From: Candidatus Didemnitutus sp.
GTDB lineage: Bacteria > Verrucomicrobiota > Verrucomicrobiia > Opitutales > Opitutaceae
Length of the DNA stretch: 43,621 nucleotides
Assembly: GCA_030681265.1 (NCBI GenBank)
Contig: JAUXXD010000026.1
Location: 1-43,621, forward strand
Direction: 5' to 3'
In this document: positions 25,349 through 33,384 of the stretch, one piece after another
Numbering within the stretch: the first letter of the stretch is position 1
How the letters are laid out: the number at the start of each line of letters is the position of its first letter
Translations under genes and position numbers: made by a program
Notes under the pieces: model-generated
Told to the model about the DNA's origin: nothing
The model's input: only the letters and a program-made list of their open reading frames with translations
Database searches by the model: none

Positions 25349-25825
25349 TCACTGACTGGAGCCCGCGCGAGCGCGACGCTGTTGCCAGAAATAATCGAGC
25401 GACCACTTCCCCGGCCCGAACGCCAACACGAGCGCGGAAACCAGCAGGAAGAGAAACGGCGCGGCTTCGGTGAAATTGTCGGGTTTGCTGAAGAGCGTGC
25501 GCACCGCCTCGTTGTCGGCGGTGAAGTAGGCGACGAGCATCGTGAAAATCAACGGCACCGATACGGGCCGTGCGAACAAGCCGAGTGCGAGCAACAGTCC
25601 GCCGCCCGCTTCCGTCGCACCGGCGAGCAAGGCATTGAGCTTCGGCAACGGAATATCCAACGACGCAAAAAATCCCGCCGTGCGGTCGAGATTCATCAAC
25701 TTGCCCCAACCCGTCTGGGCAAACGACCAGCCCCAATAAACCCGAAGCACAAACAGCAGCGGCGCTTGGAGCGCAGCCGCGCAGGCATCGAATTTTTCGC
25801 AAAAGGGTTGGAATCGAGTAAGCAT
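25349..25825 (-). CDS. DoxX-family membrane protein of the bufferin-like operon (BufD/HvfD type)
   Basis: The 158-residue protein starts at ATG 25825 (MLTRFQPF). It has four hydrophobic helices and the DoxX signature: LRVYWGWSFAQTGWGKLMNL, FFASLDIPLPKLNALLAGATEAGGGLLLALGLF, and VPLIFTMLVAYFTAD. DoxX-family proteins occur as the fourth gene of bufferin/Hvf operons (BufD, HvfD). The three genes upstream on the same strand are precursor, DUF692 and DUF2063, so it fits that position. Its exact job is unknown; the family is a small quinone-linked or redox-associated membrane fold. The gap of 107 bases to the DUF2063 gene leaves open a second promoter. Confidence 0.85.
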   Translation of the reverse strand: MLTRFQPFCEKFDACAAALQAPLLFVLRVYWGWSFAQTGWGKLMNLDRTAGFFASLDIPLPKLNALLAGATEAGGGLLLALGLFARPVSVPLIFTMLVAYFTADNEAVRTLFSKPDNFTEAAPFLFLLVSALVLAFGPGKWSLDYFWQQRRARAGSSQ

Positions 25826-25932
25826 AATCGGAGGGGTAATTGTGGAGCACTGAGGCGGCGCCGCGATGGCCGCACCTACACAGATAAGAGCCGCGCACCC
25901 GCAAAATATTCCCGCCCACTCCCCACTACTCA

Positions 25933-26886
25933 CTACTTCCGACAAAACCACCCCAACTCCATCCACGTGCGGAACCAGCTTTGCACTTTCGCGGCCCAAT
26001 CTTCGCGCGGCCGCTTGGCGCGCGGGATGCCGACGCCGAGCGCGGTCGCCAGCGGCTTACCCGCGCGGATCGCCACGAGAATATTAAACGCCGCTGGTTC
26101 GAGTCGCTTGAAATAGGTTTTCCCTTCGTGCCGGTGGATTGCGAGGTAGCAACGTTCCGCCTTCGGCGCGCGCACTTTCGCGGCGGCGCGGCGGCGGAGT
26201 TCCGTCGGCGCGTTCGACGCATCTCCGCGCAACAGCACTTCGCGCGTGCGCACGGCGAGAATGAAATCATCCACCGGATAACGCAGGTCGAGGAGCTGGA
26301 TGTAGGGTTGCAAACTCAATTTGAGTTTTGCGGGATTGGCGTCGAGCAGGTCGTCGATGGTGAAGACCGGAAACGCCGCGCCGTCGTAAACTTCGATCTG
26401 CGCCCACTCGAAACGCGCGATGTCCACGCAGAGCGTCGTGTGCGGTTTCGTCAGCGCCGGTTCCTCGCCAATAAATTTCGCCAGGCGTTGCGGCAGATCG
26501 CGCAGCGTCCAGTAACGCGACGGATATTTTTGCAAAAACGCCTCGGAGAGACGCGTGAATTTTCGTTCGCCGAGCACGGCGCGCAGGCCGGGACAATCCT
26601 CGTGCAAACTGTCGAGCACGCGGAACCAATACATGCGGTTGTAGATTTCGAGTCGCTCGAAGGCGGTGAGCCGGTCGTTCGGTTTCGCAATCTCGGCGGC
26701 GACGGCGCTGGTGCGCCGCCCGTCGGACCAACGGCGTTGCGTGCGCGTGTCGCGTCCAAGCGGACGCGTGACGACGGCGAGCATCGCGCGTTGCAAGTCG
26801 GCCAGTTCGCTCCGCGTGCTCGCGCCGAGCGGGCGGGCTTTTTTTGCCGGCTTGGTGCGGGAGCGTGGGCGTGGAGCAGAAGGCAT
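25933..26886 (-). CDS. DUF2063 partner protein of the MNIO enzyme (BufC/HvfC type)
   Basis: The 317-residue protein has a basic, Pro/Arg/Lys-rich N-terminus (1-22). A DUF2063 domain (about 28-125) follows with ADLQRAMLAVV, RLEIYNRMYWFRVLDSLHED and CPGLRAVLGERKF, then a second helical/beta part containing SRYWTLRDLPQRLAKFI and FEWAQIEVYDG. In characterised DUF692 systems this partner binds the precursor and is required with the DUF692 enzyme for modification. It starts 22 bases after the DUF692 stop, which supports one operon and one complex. Confidence 0.88.
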   Translation of the reverse strand: MPSAPRPRSRTKPAKKARPLGASTRSELADLQRAMLAVVTRPLGRDTRTQRRWSDGRRTSAVAAEIAKPNDRLTAFERLEIYNRMYWFRVLDSLHEDCPGLRAVLGERKFTRLSEAFLQKYPSRYWTLRDLPQRLAKFIGEEPALTKPHTTLCVDIARFEWAQIEVYDGAAFPVFTIDDLLDANPAKLKLSLQPYIQLLDLRYPVDDFILAVRTREVLLRGDASNAPTELRRRAAAKVRAPKAERCYLAIHRHEGKTYFKRLEPAAFNILVAIRAGKPLATALGVGIPRAKRPREDWAAKVQSWFRTWMELGWFCRK

Positions 26887-26908
26887 GGGGTGTTTGTAAC
26901 GTATTATA

Positions 26909-27793
26909 TTACAAACCGGCTCGGGGTCGGTTTGCGGACGTGCGCGGAGTGAGGGCCGCGCGGGCGCCGGCGAGGTAGGCGTTGGCTTTTAAGGCCTCGT
27001 CGTGCACTTCGGCGAAGGACGGAATCTTGTCGTCCCATTCGAGCAGCGTGGCGGTGACGCCGCAGCGTTGAATGGCGTGCGCGTAAAGTTTCCACACCGG
27101 ATCGAGCACGGGGTGGTCGTGCGTATCGAGCAGGTATTTTTCGAACTTCGTGTGGCCGGCAATGTGCATCTGCGCGACGCGGTGCGCGGGCACGAAGTTG
27201 AGGTAATCGAAAGGGTCGAAGTTGTGGTTTTCCGAGGAGACGTAGATGTTGTTTACATCGAGCAGGATTCCGCAATCGGCGCGCTCCACGACTTCGGTGA
27301 GGAACTCCCATTCGGTCATCTCGGACGCGTGAAATTCGGTGTAGGAGCTGACGTTTTCGACGGCGATGGGCAGTTCGAGGTAGTCGCGCGCGTAACGGAT
27401 GTTGGCGGCAACGTGTTTGGCCGCGGCGACCGTGTAGGGCATCGGCAACAGGTCGTGCGAGACGGTGCCATCGACGCTGCCCCAGCAGAGGTGATCCGAA
27501 ATCCACGGCGTGCCGGTGATCTTGGTGAGCGCCTTGAGGCGCTTGAGGTGATCGCGGTTGGGGAAATCTGCGGAGCCGAGGTAAAGTGAAACGCCGTGTT
27601 GCACGACGCGGTATTGCGCGAGGATTTGGTCGAGGACTGCGCGCGGACGGCCACCTTCGACCATAAAGGTTTCCGAAATTATCTCGAACCAATCGACTGT
27701 CGGTTTCTCCGAGAGAATGTGGTCGTAGTGCGGCACGCGCAGACCGATGCCAATTCCGTAGTCCGTGAATCCGTTGAATTTATTGGCGGGCAT
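26909..27793 (-). CDS. DUF692 multinuclear iron-dependent oxidase (MNIO), BufB/HvfB type
   Basis: The 294-residue protein starts at ATG 27793 (MPANKFNGFTDYGIGIGLRV). A longer frame to 27925 would run through the hairpin and is rejected. DUF692 enzymes are TIM-barrel proteins with two or three iron ions that oxidatively modify cysteines (or other residues) of ribosomal peptides. Metal-ligand and core motifs are visible: GIGLRVPHYDHIL, DWFEIISETFM, VQHGVSLYLGS, ISDHLCWG with HDLLPMPYT, VENVSSYTEFH, ADCGILLDVNNIYVSSENH, HIAGHTKFE and DTHDHPVLDPVW. The length matches the family (about 280-300). The substrate is predicted to be the Cys-repeat protein encoded immediately upstream. Confidence 0.95.
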   Translation of the reverse strand: MPANKFNGFTDYGIGIGLRVPHYDHILSEKPTVDWFEIISETFMVEGGRPRAVLDQILAQYRVVQHGVSLYLGSADFPNRDHLKRLKALTKITGTPWISDHLCWGSVDGTVSHDLLPMPYTVAAAKHVAANIRYARDYLELPIAVENVSSYTEFHASEMTEWEFLTEVVERADCGILLDVNNIYVSSENHNFDPFDYLNFVPAHRVAQMHIAGHTKFEKYLLDTHDHPVLDPVWKLYAHAIQRCGVTATLLEWDDKIPSFAEVHDEALKANAYLAGARAALTPRTSANRPRAGL

Positions 27794-27861
27794 AGGCGCG
27801 GGGACTGACTCGCTGCAGGCGGAAAATTCGGGCCTCGTCAGGGGAAGGCAAACTTTCGCGA

Positions 27862-27896
27862 AGAAAAGGAGACCGGTCGCGGCGCAACCGGTCTCC
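27862..27896 (-). terminator. Intra-operon terminator/attenuator after the precursor gene
   Basis: On the minus strand, a perfect 10-bp stem (GGAGACCGGT / ACCGGTCTCC, 27896-27868, nine-base loop) is followed by TTTTCTT. It lies 47 bases after the precursor stop and 68 bases before the DUF692 start. Partial termination here would make more precursor than enzyme messenger, a common layout in peptide-modification operons. Confidence 0.75.
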
Positions 27897-27943
27897 GCAA
27901 ATTTCAATAGGCGCGCGCGAAACAACGCGGCGCAGAAGCGGGC

Positions 27944-28246
27944 TTACTTGCCCGGCTCGGCTTTCTTGTCGTCCTTGGCTTTGCAGCCGTCCTTACTCTT
28001 GCAGGCATCCTTGGCCTTGTCGTCGGCAGCCTTGCAGCCGTCTTTGCCCTTGCAGCTGTCCTTGGCCTTGTCGTCCTTGGCTTTGCAACCGTCTTTGCCT
28101 TTACAGCTGTCTTTGGCTTTTTCGTCGCCCATCATGACGGCGGAGCCGGGGCTCTGGATGGAGGCGGATGCTTTGACAGCGAGCCCGCCGGCGTAGAGAC
28201 CGGCAATAGCGGCGGCCGCGATGATCATTCGGGTGGATTTATTCAT
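27944..28246 (-). CDS. Bufferin-like secreted precursor with three 17-residue Cys repeats
   Basis: The 100-residue protein has a signal peptide (MIIAAAAIAGLYAGGLAVKASA, cleavage near residue 27-29), so the product is exported. Residues 43-93 are three tandem 17-residue repeats: KAKDSCKGKDGCKAKDD, KAKDSCKGKDGCKAADD and KAKDACKSKDGCKAKDD. This gives six cysteines at 48/54, 65/71 and 82/88, each pair C-x5-C, in a Lys/Asp matrix. There is no aromatic or hydrophobic core. Together with the DUF692, DUF2063 and DoxX genes immediately downstream, this is the precursor of a metal-binding modified peptide (bufferin/HvfA class). In known members the cysteines become thiooxazole or oxazolone-thioamide groups that bind copper. 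Here the core is CKGKDGC, not EGKCG, so the exact modification is unknown. Confidence 0.9.
   Translation of the reverse strand: MNKSTRMIIAAAAIAGLYAGGLAVKASASIQSPGSAVMMGDEKAKDSCKGKDGCKAKDDKAKDSCKGKDGCKAADDKAKDACKSKDGCKAKDDKKAEPGK
27968..28120 (-). repeat. Three tandem 51-bp coding repeats in the precursor gene
   Basis: Units at 28120-28070, 28069-28019 and 28018-27968 each encode one 17-residue C-x5-C repeat. They are contiguous and in frame, so copy number can change by whole units without a frameshift. No unique spacers separate them, so this is not a CRISPR array. Confidence 0.9.
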
Positions 28247-28319
28247 AGTGATACGTTTTCAGGGTTTTGCCGTGCTGACACAGCGTCGTGCCGGTCAGCG
28301 TGGATACGTCGGCGTTACT

Positions 28320-28350
28320 AGTAAGAGCGTAGTCCAGGCGACTTATTCCC
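28320..28350 (-). promoter_or_regulatory. Candidate ECF-sigma promoter of the bufferin-like operon
   Basis: On the minus strand, GGGAATAA (28350-28343) is followed after 15 bases by CTCTTACT (28327-28320). The first element looks like a group-4 (ECF) sigma -35 element. The -10 end lies 73 bases before the precursor ATG, leaving room for a leader. Known bufferin/Hvf operons are often under ECF sigma factors, which is why I propose this. No sigma factor gene lies in the window. Confidence 0.35.
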
Positions 28351-28393: not shown

Positions 28394-29380
28394 TTAAATA
28401 ATCTGATCGTGCAACGGCTCGCGCTTGAGGTAGCGGCCCAAGTTATCCGTGAAATGGCGCACGAGGCTCTCGTCCTGCCCTTGATGTCCGCCGGCGAGGT
28501 GTGGCGTGATCTGGCAATTCGGCGCGGTCCACAACGGATGCTCCGGCGGCAACGGTTCCGGGTCGAGCGCGTCCAAATACGCCCCGCCCACCTGCCCGCT
28601 CGTCAACGCCGCCACGAGCGCGTCCTGATCGACGGTGGCACCGCGACCGATGTTGTAGAAATACGCGCCGCGCCGCATCTGCGCGAAAAACGCTGCATTG
28701 CAAAAACGCTGCGTCGACACGCCGTCAGGCAGCACGTTGACGACGTGGTCCGCCAGTGCGAGGTGGTCGGGCATCTCGGCGGGCGTCACGAGTTCGACCG
28801 CGTCCTCGTTTTCGTCGGCGCGTGGCGTGCGGCGCACACCAATCACGCGGCAGCGAAACGGCGCGAGCAACTCCGCGAGACGTTGCCCAATCGTGCCGTA
28901 GCCGAGCACGACCACGGTTTTGCCGGTGAGTGTTTCGATCGAGTAGCGGCCCGGCCCGTAATTCCATTCGTGCGCGCCGGTCATGTTGCGCACGTAGATC
29001 GGCAACTCGCGCGTGAAACTCATCATCATCGCCAGCGCGTGCTCGGCGCACGGACCTGCGAAAACGCCCGAGGCGTTCGTGACCATCGTGCCGCGCGCGC
29101 GCATCGCTTTGCGAAATTCCGCCTGATCGTAGCGCGTGTAGCCCGCCGTCGAAATCGCCACCCAGCGCAAACGCGGATTCGCCACGACGTCAGCCGGATT
29201 CGGTTGCCCGTAGGCGATGTCAGCCTCGGCGAGCGACGAGTCGGTCTGCCCTTCCGTCAACACCGACGCGGACGATTGCTGTGATTGCACCACCCGGCAA
29301 CCGAGTCGGGCGAGGCTGTCGTAAAACAGCTCCCGTGCTCCGGGCCGCAATGCGTGGTTCGTCCAAACCGTGACACTCAT
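28394..29380 (-). CDS. D-isomer-specific 2-hydroxyacid dehydrogenase
   Basis: The 328-residue protein starts at ATG 29380 (MSVTVWTNHALRPG). The NAD-binding domain has VVVLGYGTIGQRLAELLAPF (GxGxxG). The catalytic Arg lies in NIGRGATVDQDALVAALTSG, the Glu in YLDALDPEPLPPEHPLW and the His in ITPHLAGGHQGQ, completing the Arg-Glu-His triad of this superfamily. The reaction is reversible reduction of a 2-oxoacid to a D-2-hydroxyacid with NAD(P)H; the substrate is not predictable. It is on the same strand as, and upstream of, the bufferin-like operon, but 147 bases and a candidate promoter separate them. It is divergent from the hybrid kinase. Confidence 0.9.
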   Translation of the reverse strand: MSVTVWTNHALRPGARELFYDSLARLGCRVVQSQQSSASVLTEGQTDSSLAEADIAYGQPNPADVVANPRLRWVAISTAGYTRYDQAEFRKAMRARGTMVTNASGVFAGPCAEHALAMMMSFTRELPIYVRNMTGAHEWNYGPGRYSIETLTGKTVVVLGYGTIGQRLAELLAPFRCRVIGVRRTPRADENEDAVELVTPAEMPDHLALADHVVNVLPDGVSTQRFCNAAFFAQMRRGAYFYNIGRGATVDQDALVAALTSGQVGGAYLDALDPEPLPPEHPLWTAPNCQITPHLAGGHQGQDESLVRHFTDNLGRYLKREPLHDQII

Positions 29381-29520: not shown

Positions 29521-32500
29521 GTGTGCGTTTGCGTGCAATGCGCCGTGCTCCGAGCTCGCCGCCACCTCTGCCTTGCCGCGTGCGCGGTGGCATTATGGCT
29601 CGCGCAGTCGGCGCACGTCGTTGCCGGACTCTTTCATCCCGAAGCGGGACGTCCCCTCGTCCGCACTTACGCGCCCGCTGATTACGGCGGGCATTATCAA
29701 GTGTGGAGCATGACGCAGCGCGCCGATGGCGTGCGTTTCTTCGGCTATTTCGGTGGCGTCGCGGAATTTGATGGTGCCGCGTGGCGACAACTCGCGTTGG
29801 AAATCGGCTCCGTGCGCGGCCTCGTCGTCACGCCGGAGCAACAACTCTTTCTCACCGCGTCGAAAGACCTCGGTTGGTGCGATCACGACGAGACAGGGCA
29901 ACTGCGTTTTCATTCACTCAAGCCCGCTTTGCCGCCCGAGGCGGGGCAACCCGGACCCTTCGCCGAACTCGCGGTGCACGACGGCGCGTTGCATTTCACC
30001 ACGACCGACGCCGTCGTGCGCTGGCGCAACGGTCGCGTGGATCGCGTCTGGCCCATCGGCGGCAAGGGCACGTTGCGCCTCGCCAAAGTCGGCGAACAAC
30101 TCTGGGTGCGCCGCATGACGGCGCCGACCGTGCTCGCGTTGCGCGGCGACGAGTGGATTACGGTCGTCGAGGATCCGTGGCTCGCCGGTCAACGCGTCAA
30201 CTTCATCGCCGCCGCCGGTGCGGACCGCATCGTCTTCGGTCTCAGCGCGAGCGGACTGTATTCGCCCGGCACCGACGGCCGCCTCGCACGTTGGACGACG
30301 CCCGCCGACTCCGTGCTGGCCAACGCGCAACTCTACGCCGCCGCCACGCTGAGCGACGGCACGCTCGCCATCGGAACGTTAAGCGACGGTCTCGTGCTCA
30401 TCGCGCCCGACGGCCAGCGCGCGCGCCAACTCACGATGGCCGACGGTCTGCCGAGCAACTTCGTCGAAGGCCTCGGCACTGATCTCGAAGGTCGCCTCTG
30501 GCTTTGCACTTTCAACGGCATCGCGACGCTCGATTGGCCGACAGCGTTTACGGTGTTCGACGCGCGCGCCGGCATTGATCCGGTCACGATTCGTTCGCTA
30601 CGCCGTCTCGATGAACAAGTCGTCCTCGGCGGCAATGCTGGTGTGTTCGCAATTGAACCCGCGCGCGACGGCACGGTGCAAACTGCGTCGGTTCGCCGTG
30701 TGACCGCCGTTGTCGATTTTCACGGCGACGCCGTCACGCATCGCAGCGGCAAAATTTATCCGGCGTCCGGCGGTTTGAAGACTTTGCGCGATGGCCAACT
30801 CGTAACCGTGTTGCCGATGGAGGACGCAGTGTTCGCCGTCGGGATGCATCCGAGCGATCCCGACCGCATCTACTTCGGTGCGCAAAAAGGTGTCGGTAGC
30901 GCGCGTTACCGCGACGGCCAGTGGCAACTCGAAGGTTACGCCGCGAATCTGACGGCTTCGGTAAATTTTGTGCAGGTCGCCAGCGACGGCACCGTGTGGT
31001 ATCGCTCGATCGTGAGCGAAGGCTGGCGCGTGCAACCGGCGCGCACCGCCGACGGCGGACTTGATTGGTCGCAGCCCAACGCGGTGCCGCTGACCAAGAT
31101 TCTAGGTTGGCCGGCAAAGCTGGATGCGTTTTGGAATATCACGACGAGCTCGTTCGGCCTGATCGGATTTACCGATCAAGGAATATTGCGCTACGACGCG
31201 GCCCACGAAAAATTTACGCCGGACGCGCGCTTCGATCGTTCGCTCACACCACCGGGACCGCTCTTCACCGTCTCCGAAGAAACGGCTGATGGATTGTGGT
31301 GCATTGTTTTTCCCGAAGGGCGCAAGGCGGGCCGACGCCACGCGATGGGCCGCTACCTCTTTGAGGCAGATGGCACGGCGCGGTGGATTCCGTTGCCCGA
31401 CGATCTCACCGTTTCGCTCGGCGCCTTTGCGGCGCATGAAGTCATCACCGACGCGCAACACCCACATGTCTACTGGATGCGCGGCACCAACGCCGTCGGG
31501 CGGCTCGATCTCGCTAAAGCCACGACACCAGCAGCACCGCGCGCGCCGTTGTTGCGCCGCGTGCTCCGAGGCACCGCGCCGCAACCATTGGCGGGCGTGC
31601 GACCACAGCGCGAGTTCGCGTGGGCGCGCACCGCGTTGACGTTTCATTACGCCGCGCCGCATGCCGGACTCGGCACGACGCGCTTTCAAACACGTCTCGT
31701 CGGCTGGGACGACAACTGGAGCGAACCGCAAGCGCGGGCGGAAACGACGTTCACCGGTCTCGGCGCGGACCGCTATGTTTTCGAAGTGCGCGAGCTCGAT
31801 GCGCAAGGCCGCGTGAGTCCGGCGGCGCGTTTCGAATTTGCGATTTTGCCGCCGTGGTGGTTCACGCCGTGGGCGTGGCTGGCCTACGCGACGGCGGCGG
31901 CGGTGTTGCTCTATGGACTGTTCCGCTGGCGCGTTGCCTCGCTCATGAGCCAACGTGTGATATTGGAAGGCATCGTGCGCGAACGCACCGGTGAACTCGC
32001 CGCTGCGCGCGATCAGGCGGAGGCCGCCAACCGCGCGAAAAGCAATTTCCTCGCGCACATGAGTCATGAATTGCGCACGCCGCTCAACGGCATCATCGGC
32101 TACGGGCAGGTGTTGCTCAAGGACAGCTCGGTGCACGGCAGCTTGCGCGAACGCGTCTCGATCATCCATGCCAGCGGGCTGCACTTGCTGCGCCTGATCA
32201 ACGAAGTGCTCGATTTCTCGAAGATCGAAGCGGGCAAAATCGAGCGGCACGACACGGCGTTTCACTTCGATCTGTGGTTGCGCGAACTCACGGTCGGCCA
32301 TCGCGCCGCGGCCATCGCGCGCGGACTGGAGTTGGCGATCAACGTCGTGCCGGGCGTGCCGGAGTTCGTCCACGGCGACGCGCAAAAGCTGCGGCAGATT
32401 CTCGACAATTTGTTGTCCAACGCGGTGAAGTTCACCACGCGCGGCACGGTGACGTTGCAAGTTGCACCGACGACAAGCGATCTCGTCGCGTTTACGGTGC

Positions 32501-33384
32501 GCGACACGGGCGTCGGGCTGTCGTCGGAAGATCGCGCGCGGCTCTTTCAACCGTTTGAACAGGCGCGTGACGGACGACCGGTCGCACCCGGCACCGGACT
32601 CGGACTCGCCATCACGCAACGCCTCGCGCAGGTGCTCGGCGGTGACATCACGGTGGAGAGCACGGCGGGCGTTGGCTCGGCGTTTTGTTGCACGGTGCCG
32701 TTGCCCGCGACGACCGACCCACGACCACACGGCGCGACGGCGGCAAGTCCGACCGGCTATCGCGGCGAGCGGCGGCGCGGGCTCATCGTCGATGACCACG
32801 CCCTCAAACGCTCGTTGCTTGCGGATATGCTGACGCCTCTCGGTTTCAACGTCGCCACTTACGCGAGCGCCGAGGAACTCCTCGCGTTGCCACCTGAAGC
32901 ACGCCGCGCCGATCTCGCAATTCTCGACGTGAAACTGCCGGGCATTGACGGGTTGGAGTTGGCTCGACGATTGCACGCCACGCGTGAAACCGCTGCGATG
33001 CCAATTGTTTTTTCGTCGGCTTCGGTGCTCACGTTTGATCACGCCACGGCGGCAAAGTTGGGCTGCCACGCATTTTTACCCAAACCGTTTTCCGCAACCG
33101 AACTTTTCGCGATTCTGGCGCAACAACTCGACTTGGCCTGGGAGAGCGCTGTCACGATTGACGCGCCCGCCACTCCCGCCGACGACGGGGCTCAGCTTCC
33201 GCCCGAACTTGTCTCGTCGTTACTGGCGATCGCGGACACGGGAGATGTGGCGGCGTTGCGTCGCGCCATTACGATTGCGCTTCAAGAGCATCGCGCCAAC
33301 AAGACACTCACGCGGGTTGATCATGCGGCGGCTTCCTATCAACTAGAGGAAGTGCGCCTCCTCCTTCGCAACAACCCCCGATGA
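29521..33384 (+). CDS. Hybrid sensor histidine kinase with periplasmic beta-propeller and receiver
   Basis: The protein is up to 1287 residues. Starts at GTG 29521, 29533 or 29545 are possible; 29545 gives the cleanest signal peptide ([21 protein letters not shown]). A large periplasmic sensor (about 45-690) has Reg_prop-type propeller strands, for example [20 protein letters not shown] and [24 protein letters not shown]-like beta-sandwich follows (about 698-775; [11 protein letters not shown]). One membrane helix (about 780-803) leads to HisKA with [15 protein letters not shown] (phospho-His H849), and HATPase with [16 protein letters not shown] and [10 protein letters not shown] receiver follows (acidic pair 1091-1092, phospho-acceptor D1136 in ILDVKLPG), then an 80-residue helical tail. 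It phosphorylates its partner in response to an external, probably nutrient, signal. The stop overlaps the response-regulator start by four bases. Confidence 0.92.

Follow-up and report, generated by a model that had tools for sequence, protein, structure and literature searches.

The window analysed here, a stretch of 43,621 nucleotides (contig JAUXXD010000026.1, contig C76 of our numbering) from the 3.56 Mb, 98.9% complete genome of Candidatus Didemnitutus sp. (Opitutaceae, Verrucomicrobiota; GCA_030681265.1), carries four consecutive minus-strand open reading frames (ORFs) in the order bufA-bufB-bufC-doxX, from 28246 down to 25349. Together they probably (about 0.8) form a Cys-Lys/BufA2-type operon for a captophorin (bufferin), in which the precursor is a repeat array and an ECF sigma factor is in control; the operon product would be a 5-thiooxazole peptide, exported to chelate copper or comparable soft metals. 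Systems of this kind are already known, and what is new is the precursor. The reading is carried by the genes and their homology, by conservation of a promoter and a hairpin across related loci, and by linkage of the repeat motif of the precursor to MNIO genes.

Genes of the operon

An earlier note, made from the DNA letters alone, had proposed a complete bufferin/Hvf-type operon of four consecutive minus-strand genes, and both points were borne out: the ORFs follow one another in the order A-B-C-DoxX (Table 1), BufB is over a curated cut-off, and BufC is 3DEE-like with an RRE domain. BufB scores 350.1 bits with PF05114 and 338.5 bits with NF050167, "MNIO family bufferin maturase" (cut-off 310), and the doxX product 79.3 bits with PF07681 DoxX (cut-off 23.6). 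BufC is over the cut-off of PF09836 (56.6 bits) and under that of the HvfC equivalog NF050145 (46.6 bits, cut-off 142). A phmmer search of PDB with BufC gave nothing useful, and fold comparison alone gave matches: the model (mean predicted local distance difference test score, pLDDT, 88), built on an alignment of the window protein plus 40 of 56 BufC references, matches NGO1945 (3DEE, Z 15.0) and TglI (8HCI_A, Z 12.7), and its residues 190-316 match the RRE protein TbiB1 (5V1U, Z 8.3). As modelled, BufC is the DUF2063-RRE partner of PME-type 1. The precursor gene lies directly upstream of the MNIO gene, with 150 bp from the end of bufA to bufB, and a genome-wide search found one MNIO and one such precursor in this genome.

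The precursor and its repeat units

The precursor begins with a leader, MNKSTRMIIAAAAIAGLYAGGLAVKASA, judged by eye to be Sec-type, which is followed by three units spaced by 17 residues (CKGKDGC, CKGKDGC and CKSKDGC), each with C-x5-C, giving a Cys spacing of 5-10-5-10-5. In the AlphaFold model, a helix at residues 3-30 covers the leader and disorder follows (pLDDT 50, predicted template modelling score 0.20); as this model has no usable fold, no fold search was run from it. The earlier note had described three exact 17-residue units in a Lys/Asp-only matrix. The 17-residue spacing stands, but not the exactness, as pairs of units are identical at only 15, 14 and 14 of 17 residues (39-40 of 51 nt), and the Lys/Asp-only matrix is refuted by the composition of the mature part (71 residues, cut by eye: K20 D13 A10 G8 C6 S5). 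Codons that differ between units are synonymous/non-synonymous in ratios of 7/2, 7/3 and 4/3; with synonymous changes exceeding replacements, the units seem to be kept by selection on the protein. The core does differ from EGKCG, as had been claimed: that motif is not present, and each Cys has Ser, Gly or Ala before it and Lys after it. By sequence, the precursor belongs with the Cys-Lys/BufA2-like captophorin/bufferin group, as a putative repeat-array variant, and not with the EGKCG group. Matches of precursors to collagen-adhesin models were rejected as low-complexity, being far under their cut-offs, and a tblastn search of plasmids with a precursor gave no match, perhaps owing to the low-complexity filter.

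In the 3.56 Mb genome itself, the back-translated motif CKxKDGCK has three matches, all within bufA (reversed control, 0). Scanned as DNA in 252 genomes of the family, it has 77 matches in 27 genomes (control, 0), and all 77 are within bufA genes beside MNIO. Motif-bearing genomes make up 27 of the 77 with MNIO and none of the 175 without (Fisher p 3e-16). The outcome that the earlier note had named as contrary to its proposal, a motif never beside DUF692 in relatives, was thus not what was seen. A scan of genome_contigs with a longer pattern alone returned 32 loci, of which 12 were Opitutaceae loci that the family set already contained, and MNIO is present at 28 of the 32 (16 of the 20 others). 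The four pattern loci without MNIO are two from Akkermansiaceae with DoxX adjoining the precursor, one cut by the locus end, and L129, with neither MNIO nor DoxX in the DNA examined. Judged by title, the loci come from Verrucomicrobiota, Bacteroidota, Ignavibacteria, Kapaibacterium, Acidobacteria, Myxococcales, a Deltaproteobacterium, Pseudobacteriovorax and Thiotrichaceae. Gene order varies in Akkermansiaceae: L117, L127, L132 and L135 have a repeat precursor beside DoxX in other gene orders, with MNIO about 1.5 kb further on in L117 and L135 and outside the DNA examined in L127 and L132, and L113 has its MNIO gene on the other strand.

Precursors of related loci

Of the 252 genomes, 77 had an MNIO match, 76 of them over the cut-off. 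The survey took up 76 MNIO places, leaving out five short or weak matches, and the precursor was readable at 71 of these; the remaining five are L023 (another kind of precursor), L064 and L073 (no full leader readable), and L107 and L108 (distant MNIOs). Most of the 71 precursors have a common leader like MNKSTRLIITAAAxAGLYAGSLA, in which M1, A12, A13 and G16 are invariant throughout. Under this one leader the relatives form a continuum of 6-Cys BufA2-like cores, chimeras and repeat-only arrays. Class A (30 precursors, 6-11 Cys) has solely a 6-Cys core such as CKGKNSCKGQGGC-x6-CKGKNSCKGKGGC; class B (20 precursors, 8-14 Cys) has this core plus CKGKDG-type hexads; and class C (21 precursors including that of the window, 3-11 Cys, a few rows irregular) is without the 6-Cys core, these counts following hand reassignment of one row, L098. 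The 6-Cys core of classes A (30) and B (20) has 5-5-6-5-5 spacing, and in all three classes C-x5-C is more frequent than any other spacing (A 123/156, B 135/167, C 113/150). The same C-x5-C/CKG plan is seen in a Pseudomonas putida plasmid precursor, CFGVNGCKGQNDC, which scores 92.5 bits with the BufA2 model NF050166 (cut-off 60); the BufA2 six-Cys core with 5-5-6-5 spacing, as in that member, is absent from the window precursor. An unclassified bacterium (L130) has eleven CKGKD units by eye and an MNIO with 47% identity, and its precursor has no match to the BufA2 model at E up to 1. The precursor candidate of L023 (237 aa, 7 Cys, twin-arginine-like start by eye) stands before a distant MNIO (49% identity).

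A tree of MNIOs was built with a quick method from 89 rows (unrooted, Shimodaira-Hasegawa-like approximate likelihood ratio test support (SH-aLRT) only, long branches flagged, outgroup rows chosen by repeat motif). In this tree, the window MNIO is in a 7-row set that is entirely class C (SH-aLRT 99), within a 21-row set (98) made up of 13 C, 6 B and 2 A rows. At least three label changes on starred branches are needed to account for class C; thus, repeat-only cores are not one clade.

The specificity site of BufB

Gadgil et al. (2026) describe three precursor groups (DUF2282, Lys-Cys and Cys-Lys), with 5-thiooxazole in several, and report that in Cys-Lys MNIOs an Asp replaces the Phe beside the catalytic Asp (PMC13097082). 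An iron site has been reported for HvfBC (PMC13419390). Aligned to 3BWW and 8HCI, BufB has LLEWD254-D255 at the catalytic-base/specificity site, as opposed to RDF in 3BWW, and so carries Asp in place of FonB-Phe250, adjoining the catalytic Asp, where 3BWW and FonB both have Phe. At the site of FonB-Arg16, BufB has Val after GLR, and Arg is not conserved there. The Asp at the FonB-F250 site is found in 68 of the 71 family enzymes with a classed precursor: 20/21 in class C, 20/20 in class B and 28/30 in class A (one Asn, one unread).

Promoter and hairpin

The pattern GGAATA-N16/17-CTCnnA was found upstream of bufA at 60 of 71 loci, at a median distance of 102 nt from the start codon (mean of 0.02 in shuffles, with at most 1 in 50 sets; reverse strand, 0). 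The window has two matches, with 0.05 expected from window shuffles, and 0 matches in a sigma-70 promoter scan. Upstream of doxX, a slightly looser motif is found at 19 of 56 loci, and at none of 56 control stretches. Since the pattern was drawn up from these bufA upstream regions, genome-wide counts are the independent test. The own genome has 19 matches, versus 1 for the reversed pattern, and eight other operon-bearing genomes have 6-12 each, versus 1-3 in the control. In four MNIO-less genomes (motif/control 9/3, 3/5, 16/11 and 11/7) the signal is weak or absent, except perhaps in the first, G001.

In the own genome, the motif precedes bufA, doxX, two ECF sigma genes, msrA, msrB, a redoxin gene and a DUF547 gene, and also a pyridine-nucleotide oxidoreductase gene, a glycosyltransferase gene, a FabK-like gene and arsS, the remaining matches being without a clear gene. 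These assignments leave out two matches (C10 and C148) and use start codons chosen mechanically, the first starts of redoxin and arsS overlapping the site. In 20 hand-picked regions of six operon-bearing genomes, the 21 sites include 4 before an ECF sigma plus anti-sigma-like gene, 4 before msrA, 6 before msrB, 1 before a clear redoxin gene and 1 before a DoxX gene (by eye); 5 have no clear match, one of them a weak redoxin match. The DoxX gene at L231 (G050:C1:3251500-3253400, by eye), which has the same motif, lies away from the buf operon. Contig C125 of the own genome (L177-L179, 56 kb) holds 11 of the 19 sites. It also carries merA (537 bits), arsS (427 bits) and genes for an ECF sigma factor, redoxin and oxidoreductase, and resembles a cluster for metal(loid)/redox stress.

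The promoter would be of the ECF-sigma type by analogy with published regulons that hold the same gene set (PMC3240639, PMC7907618, PMC3511200). As described there, the Neisseria meningitidis SigE regulon has msrAB and a DoxX operon; that of Haemophilus influenzae RpoE2 has msrAB and a DoxX/COG3220/DUF2063 cluster, RpoE2-dependent under hypochlorite; and that of Caulobacter SigF has DUF2282, DUF692, DUF2063 and DoxX genes, with msrA unchanged. Given the same gene set in these regulons, the verrucomicrobial operon most likely works as a periplasmic copper/oxidant-stress captophorin. Among the texts searched, none joins Opitutaceae, ECF sigma and methionine sulfoxide.

Between bufA and bufB, a terminator-like hairpin is kept at 62 of 69 loci, leaving out two of the 71 (one gap with N, one gap of 8 nt). 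Shuffles gave a mean of 4.55 and a maximum of 9 in 20 sets, and equal-length stretches upstream of bufA gave 5/69. Under other scoring the count is 60/71, one of these over N; 62/69 is the count used. A window-wide terminator scan by itself was near chance (7 found, 5.5 expected), and a literature search on bufferin and terminator gave nothing relevant among the matches listed.

Comparison with known systems

The closest known systems are the Buf2/BufA2 bufferins (Cys-Lys captophorins; NF050166, maturase NF050167), with which the operon has in common the order A-B-C-DoxX, C-x5-C with CKG, a leader that by eye is likewise Sec-type, a BufB-type MNIO and a DUF2063-RRE partner. The window precursor differs in having no conserved 6-Cys domain, in its variable number of CKGKDG-type hexads and in falling under the BufA2 cut-off. 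For Buf2, Antoine et al. (2025) report a mass loss and a 305 nm band (PMC12452194). The EGKCG captophorins (oxazolin HvfA, fontiphorin, gonophorin and bulbicupramide, the last described as EGKCG type in PMC12538549) also have a repeat precursor and the same gene set, and the 17-residue EGKCG repeats described by Antoine et al. have, in part, two Cys per unit like the window precursor (PMC12452194). However, they have Lys before and Gly after Cys, and C-x4-C, and one EGKCG protein was modelled as a beta-helix (PMC12452194), whereas the window precursor is predicted to be disordered. The Neisseria and Haemophilus EGKCG clusters belong to an ECF-MsrAB regulon like that predicted for the window: in the SigE and RpoE2 regulons, an ECF sigma and anti-sigma pair controls Msr and a bufABC-DoxX cluster. 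The window differs from these in being from Verrucomicrobiota, in its Cys-Lys precursor and in a promoter deduced from sequence alone. The CxxxxC family of Antoine et al. (76 proteins) likewise has MNIO, DUF2063 and DoxX, and a signal peptide such as the window precursor has by eye, with four residues between Cys instead of five; CxxxxxC is absent from the main text of that article (PMC12452194). It also mentions hundreds of unclassified Cys-rich precursors (PMC12452194), among which the window type could be.

The suggestion of the earlier note that this is a new precursor subgroup is upheld only in part. The precursor can be placed in the Cys-Lys (BufA2) group already published, but the BufA2 model misses repeat-only arrays, and no description of such arrays was found in the texts searched. 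These texts included none with CKGKDG or CKGKNSC (supplementary alignments, which may illustrate repeat-only arrays, lay outside the search) and none joining Verrucomicrobiota with bufferins.

Proposed function and alternative explanations

Modelled on published relatives, from which the modification chemistry, metal binding, export, sigma-factor assignment and hairpin effect are taken, the operon probably works as follows. Under envelope stress, an ECF sigma factor would transcribe bufA and, separately, doxX, and the hairpin behind bufA would leave more precursor mRNA than enzyme mRNA. In the cytoplasm, a complex of BufB and BufC (iron MNIO plus RRE partner) would bind the precursor and carry out a four-electron oxidation of each cysteine in the CKGKDGC units, giving 5-thiooxazoles (about -4 Da per Cys, or -24 Da for all six). 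Exported by Sec and largely unfolded, the peptide would then chelate copper or comparable soft metals in the periplasm, beside DoxX. Conversion of every Cys to a 5-thiooxazole, with copper buffering by the exported peptide, is the most likely outcome.

Several observations weigh against the captophorin reading. The window precursor scores only 11.8 bits with the BufA2 model; 64 of the 71 family precursors match it at E up to 1, the best at 54.4 bits, and none passes; a search of 387 phylum genomes gave 15 matches, none passing. At 15 cross-phylum repeat loci, the site of the Asp is A in 6, E in 4, G in 1 and unread in 4; with A, E or G at 11 of 15, Asp is not common to all enzymes beside CKGKDG precursors. 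In vitro, FonBC left Cys-Lys test substrates unprocessed (PMC13097082), so that activity would depend on family-specific enzymes. The promoter motif is also enriched in G001, which has no MNIO (9 versus 3), the sigma factor is assigned from sequence and published relatives rather than by experiment, and the chemistry and metal binding of repeat-only precursors likewise lean on published relatives.

The precursor might instead be an unmodified, metallothionein-like thiol peptide, with the enzyme pair acting elsewhere or not at all. Its richness in Cys and Lys and its predicted disorder are in favour of this, as is the one locus in 32 (L129) with neither MNIO nor DoxX; however, the motif is beside MNIO in every family match and absent from the MNIO-less genomes, and bufC lies downstream of the precursor on the same strand at 69 of 71 family loci, which makes such a peptide quite improbable. 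It is somewhat less improbable, although still unlikely, that BufBC installs another modification (e.g. oxazolone/thioamide, or on some Cys only) with another metal specificity. The residues around Cys, unlike KCG, point that way, as do the promoter sites that precede the arsenosugar (ArsS) gene on a MerA-bearing contig. Against it, the enzyme is BufB by the curated cut-off, and in the PME1-dependent cases regarded as characterised by Gadgil et al. the product is 5-thiooxazole (PMC13097082). The different modification proposed in the earlier note also gains no support from the P. putida BufA2, which shares C-x5-C and Lys after Cys, or from the Cys-Lys-type Asp-Asp pair of the enzyme.

Least likely of all, with very little probability, is that a BufA2 precursor has lost its 6-Cys domain and is decaying, the repeat-only core being what is left. 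A BufA2 score near noise and a Cys number that ranges from 3 to 10 among the nine intact precursors of the genus would be expected of a relic, but the excess of synonymous changes between units argues for constraint, Cys1 and Lys4 are invariant in 49 genus hexads although their codons vary, and the same hexad is kept at loci from other phyla. A broader version of the captophorin reading is possible, though doubtful: CKGKDG arrays may be a separate cross-phylum class of captophorin precursors, disordered multi-thiooxazole strings with a capacity set by repeat number, which in this lineage would serve a wider response to soft metal(loid)s and oxidants (Cu, Hg, As and hypochlorite) under one ECF sigma factor, and not to copper alone.

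If the captophorin reading is right, the Cys-Lys branch includes simple hexapeptide arrays missed by the curated BufA2 model, the cut-off of which is reached by 0 of the 71 family members and 0 of 10 precursors from other groups (Verrucomicrobiota, Acidobacteriota, Ignavibacteriota, Myxococcota and others). These 10, scanned from the 20 non-Opitutaceae pattern loci, include 9 that match the model at 13.2-40.1 bits. The arrays are natural substrates with 3 to 11 Cys, of use in testing repeat reading by MNIOs and the role of the Asp-Asp site. The shared promoter would link thiooxazole peptides with the repair of methionine sulfoxide in one more, distant lineage, which opens a direct test of whether their physiological role concerns copper, oxidants or both.

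Coordinates and neighboring genes

Table 1. Features of the buf operon in the window.
Feature	Coordinates	Strand	Details
bufA-like precursor	27944..28246	minus	100 aa, 6 Cys; homologues at 71 loci aligned
bufB, MNIO (DUF692/PF05114) maturase	26909..27793	minus	294 aa; NF050167 and PF05114
bufC, predicted DUF2063 + RRE partner (PME-type 1)	25933..26886	minus	317 aa; PF09836 and fold comparison
doxX-like membrane protein	25349..25825	minus	158 aa; PF07681
Putative ECF-sigma-type promoter of bufA, GGAATA-N16-CTCTTA	28322..28349	minus	begins 103 nt upstream of start codon
Putative second ECF-type promoter copy, upstream of doxX	25885..25912	minus	motif scan of window
Terminator-like hairpin GGAGACCGGT...ACCGGTCTCC + TTTTCTT	27868..27896	minus	between bufA and bufB

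Upstream of bufA, the window has a D-2-hydroxyacid dehydrogenase gene on the minus strand (28394-29380; PF02826, 165 bits). Such a gene is found upstream of bufA on the same strand at 47 of 71 loci (43 of 63 where more than 1 kb upstream is covered), ending 125-341 nt from bufA in most of the 40 rows listed; its role in the operon is not evident. Beyond it, a long divergent ORF on the plus strand (29521-33384) is by eye sensor histidine kinase-like, with a propeller-type N-terminus and a receiver domain.

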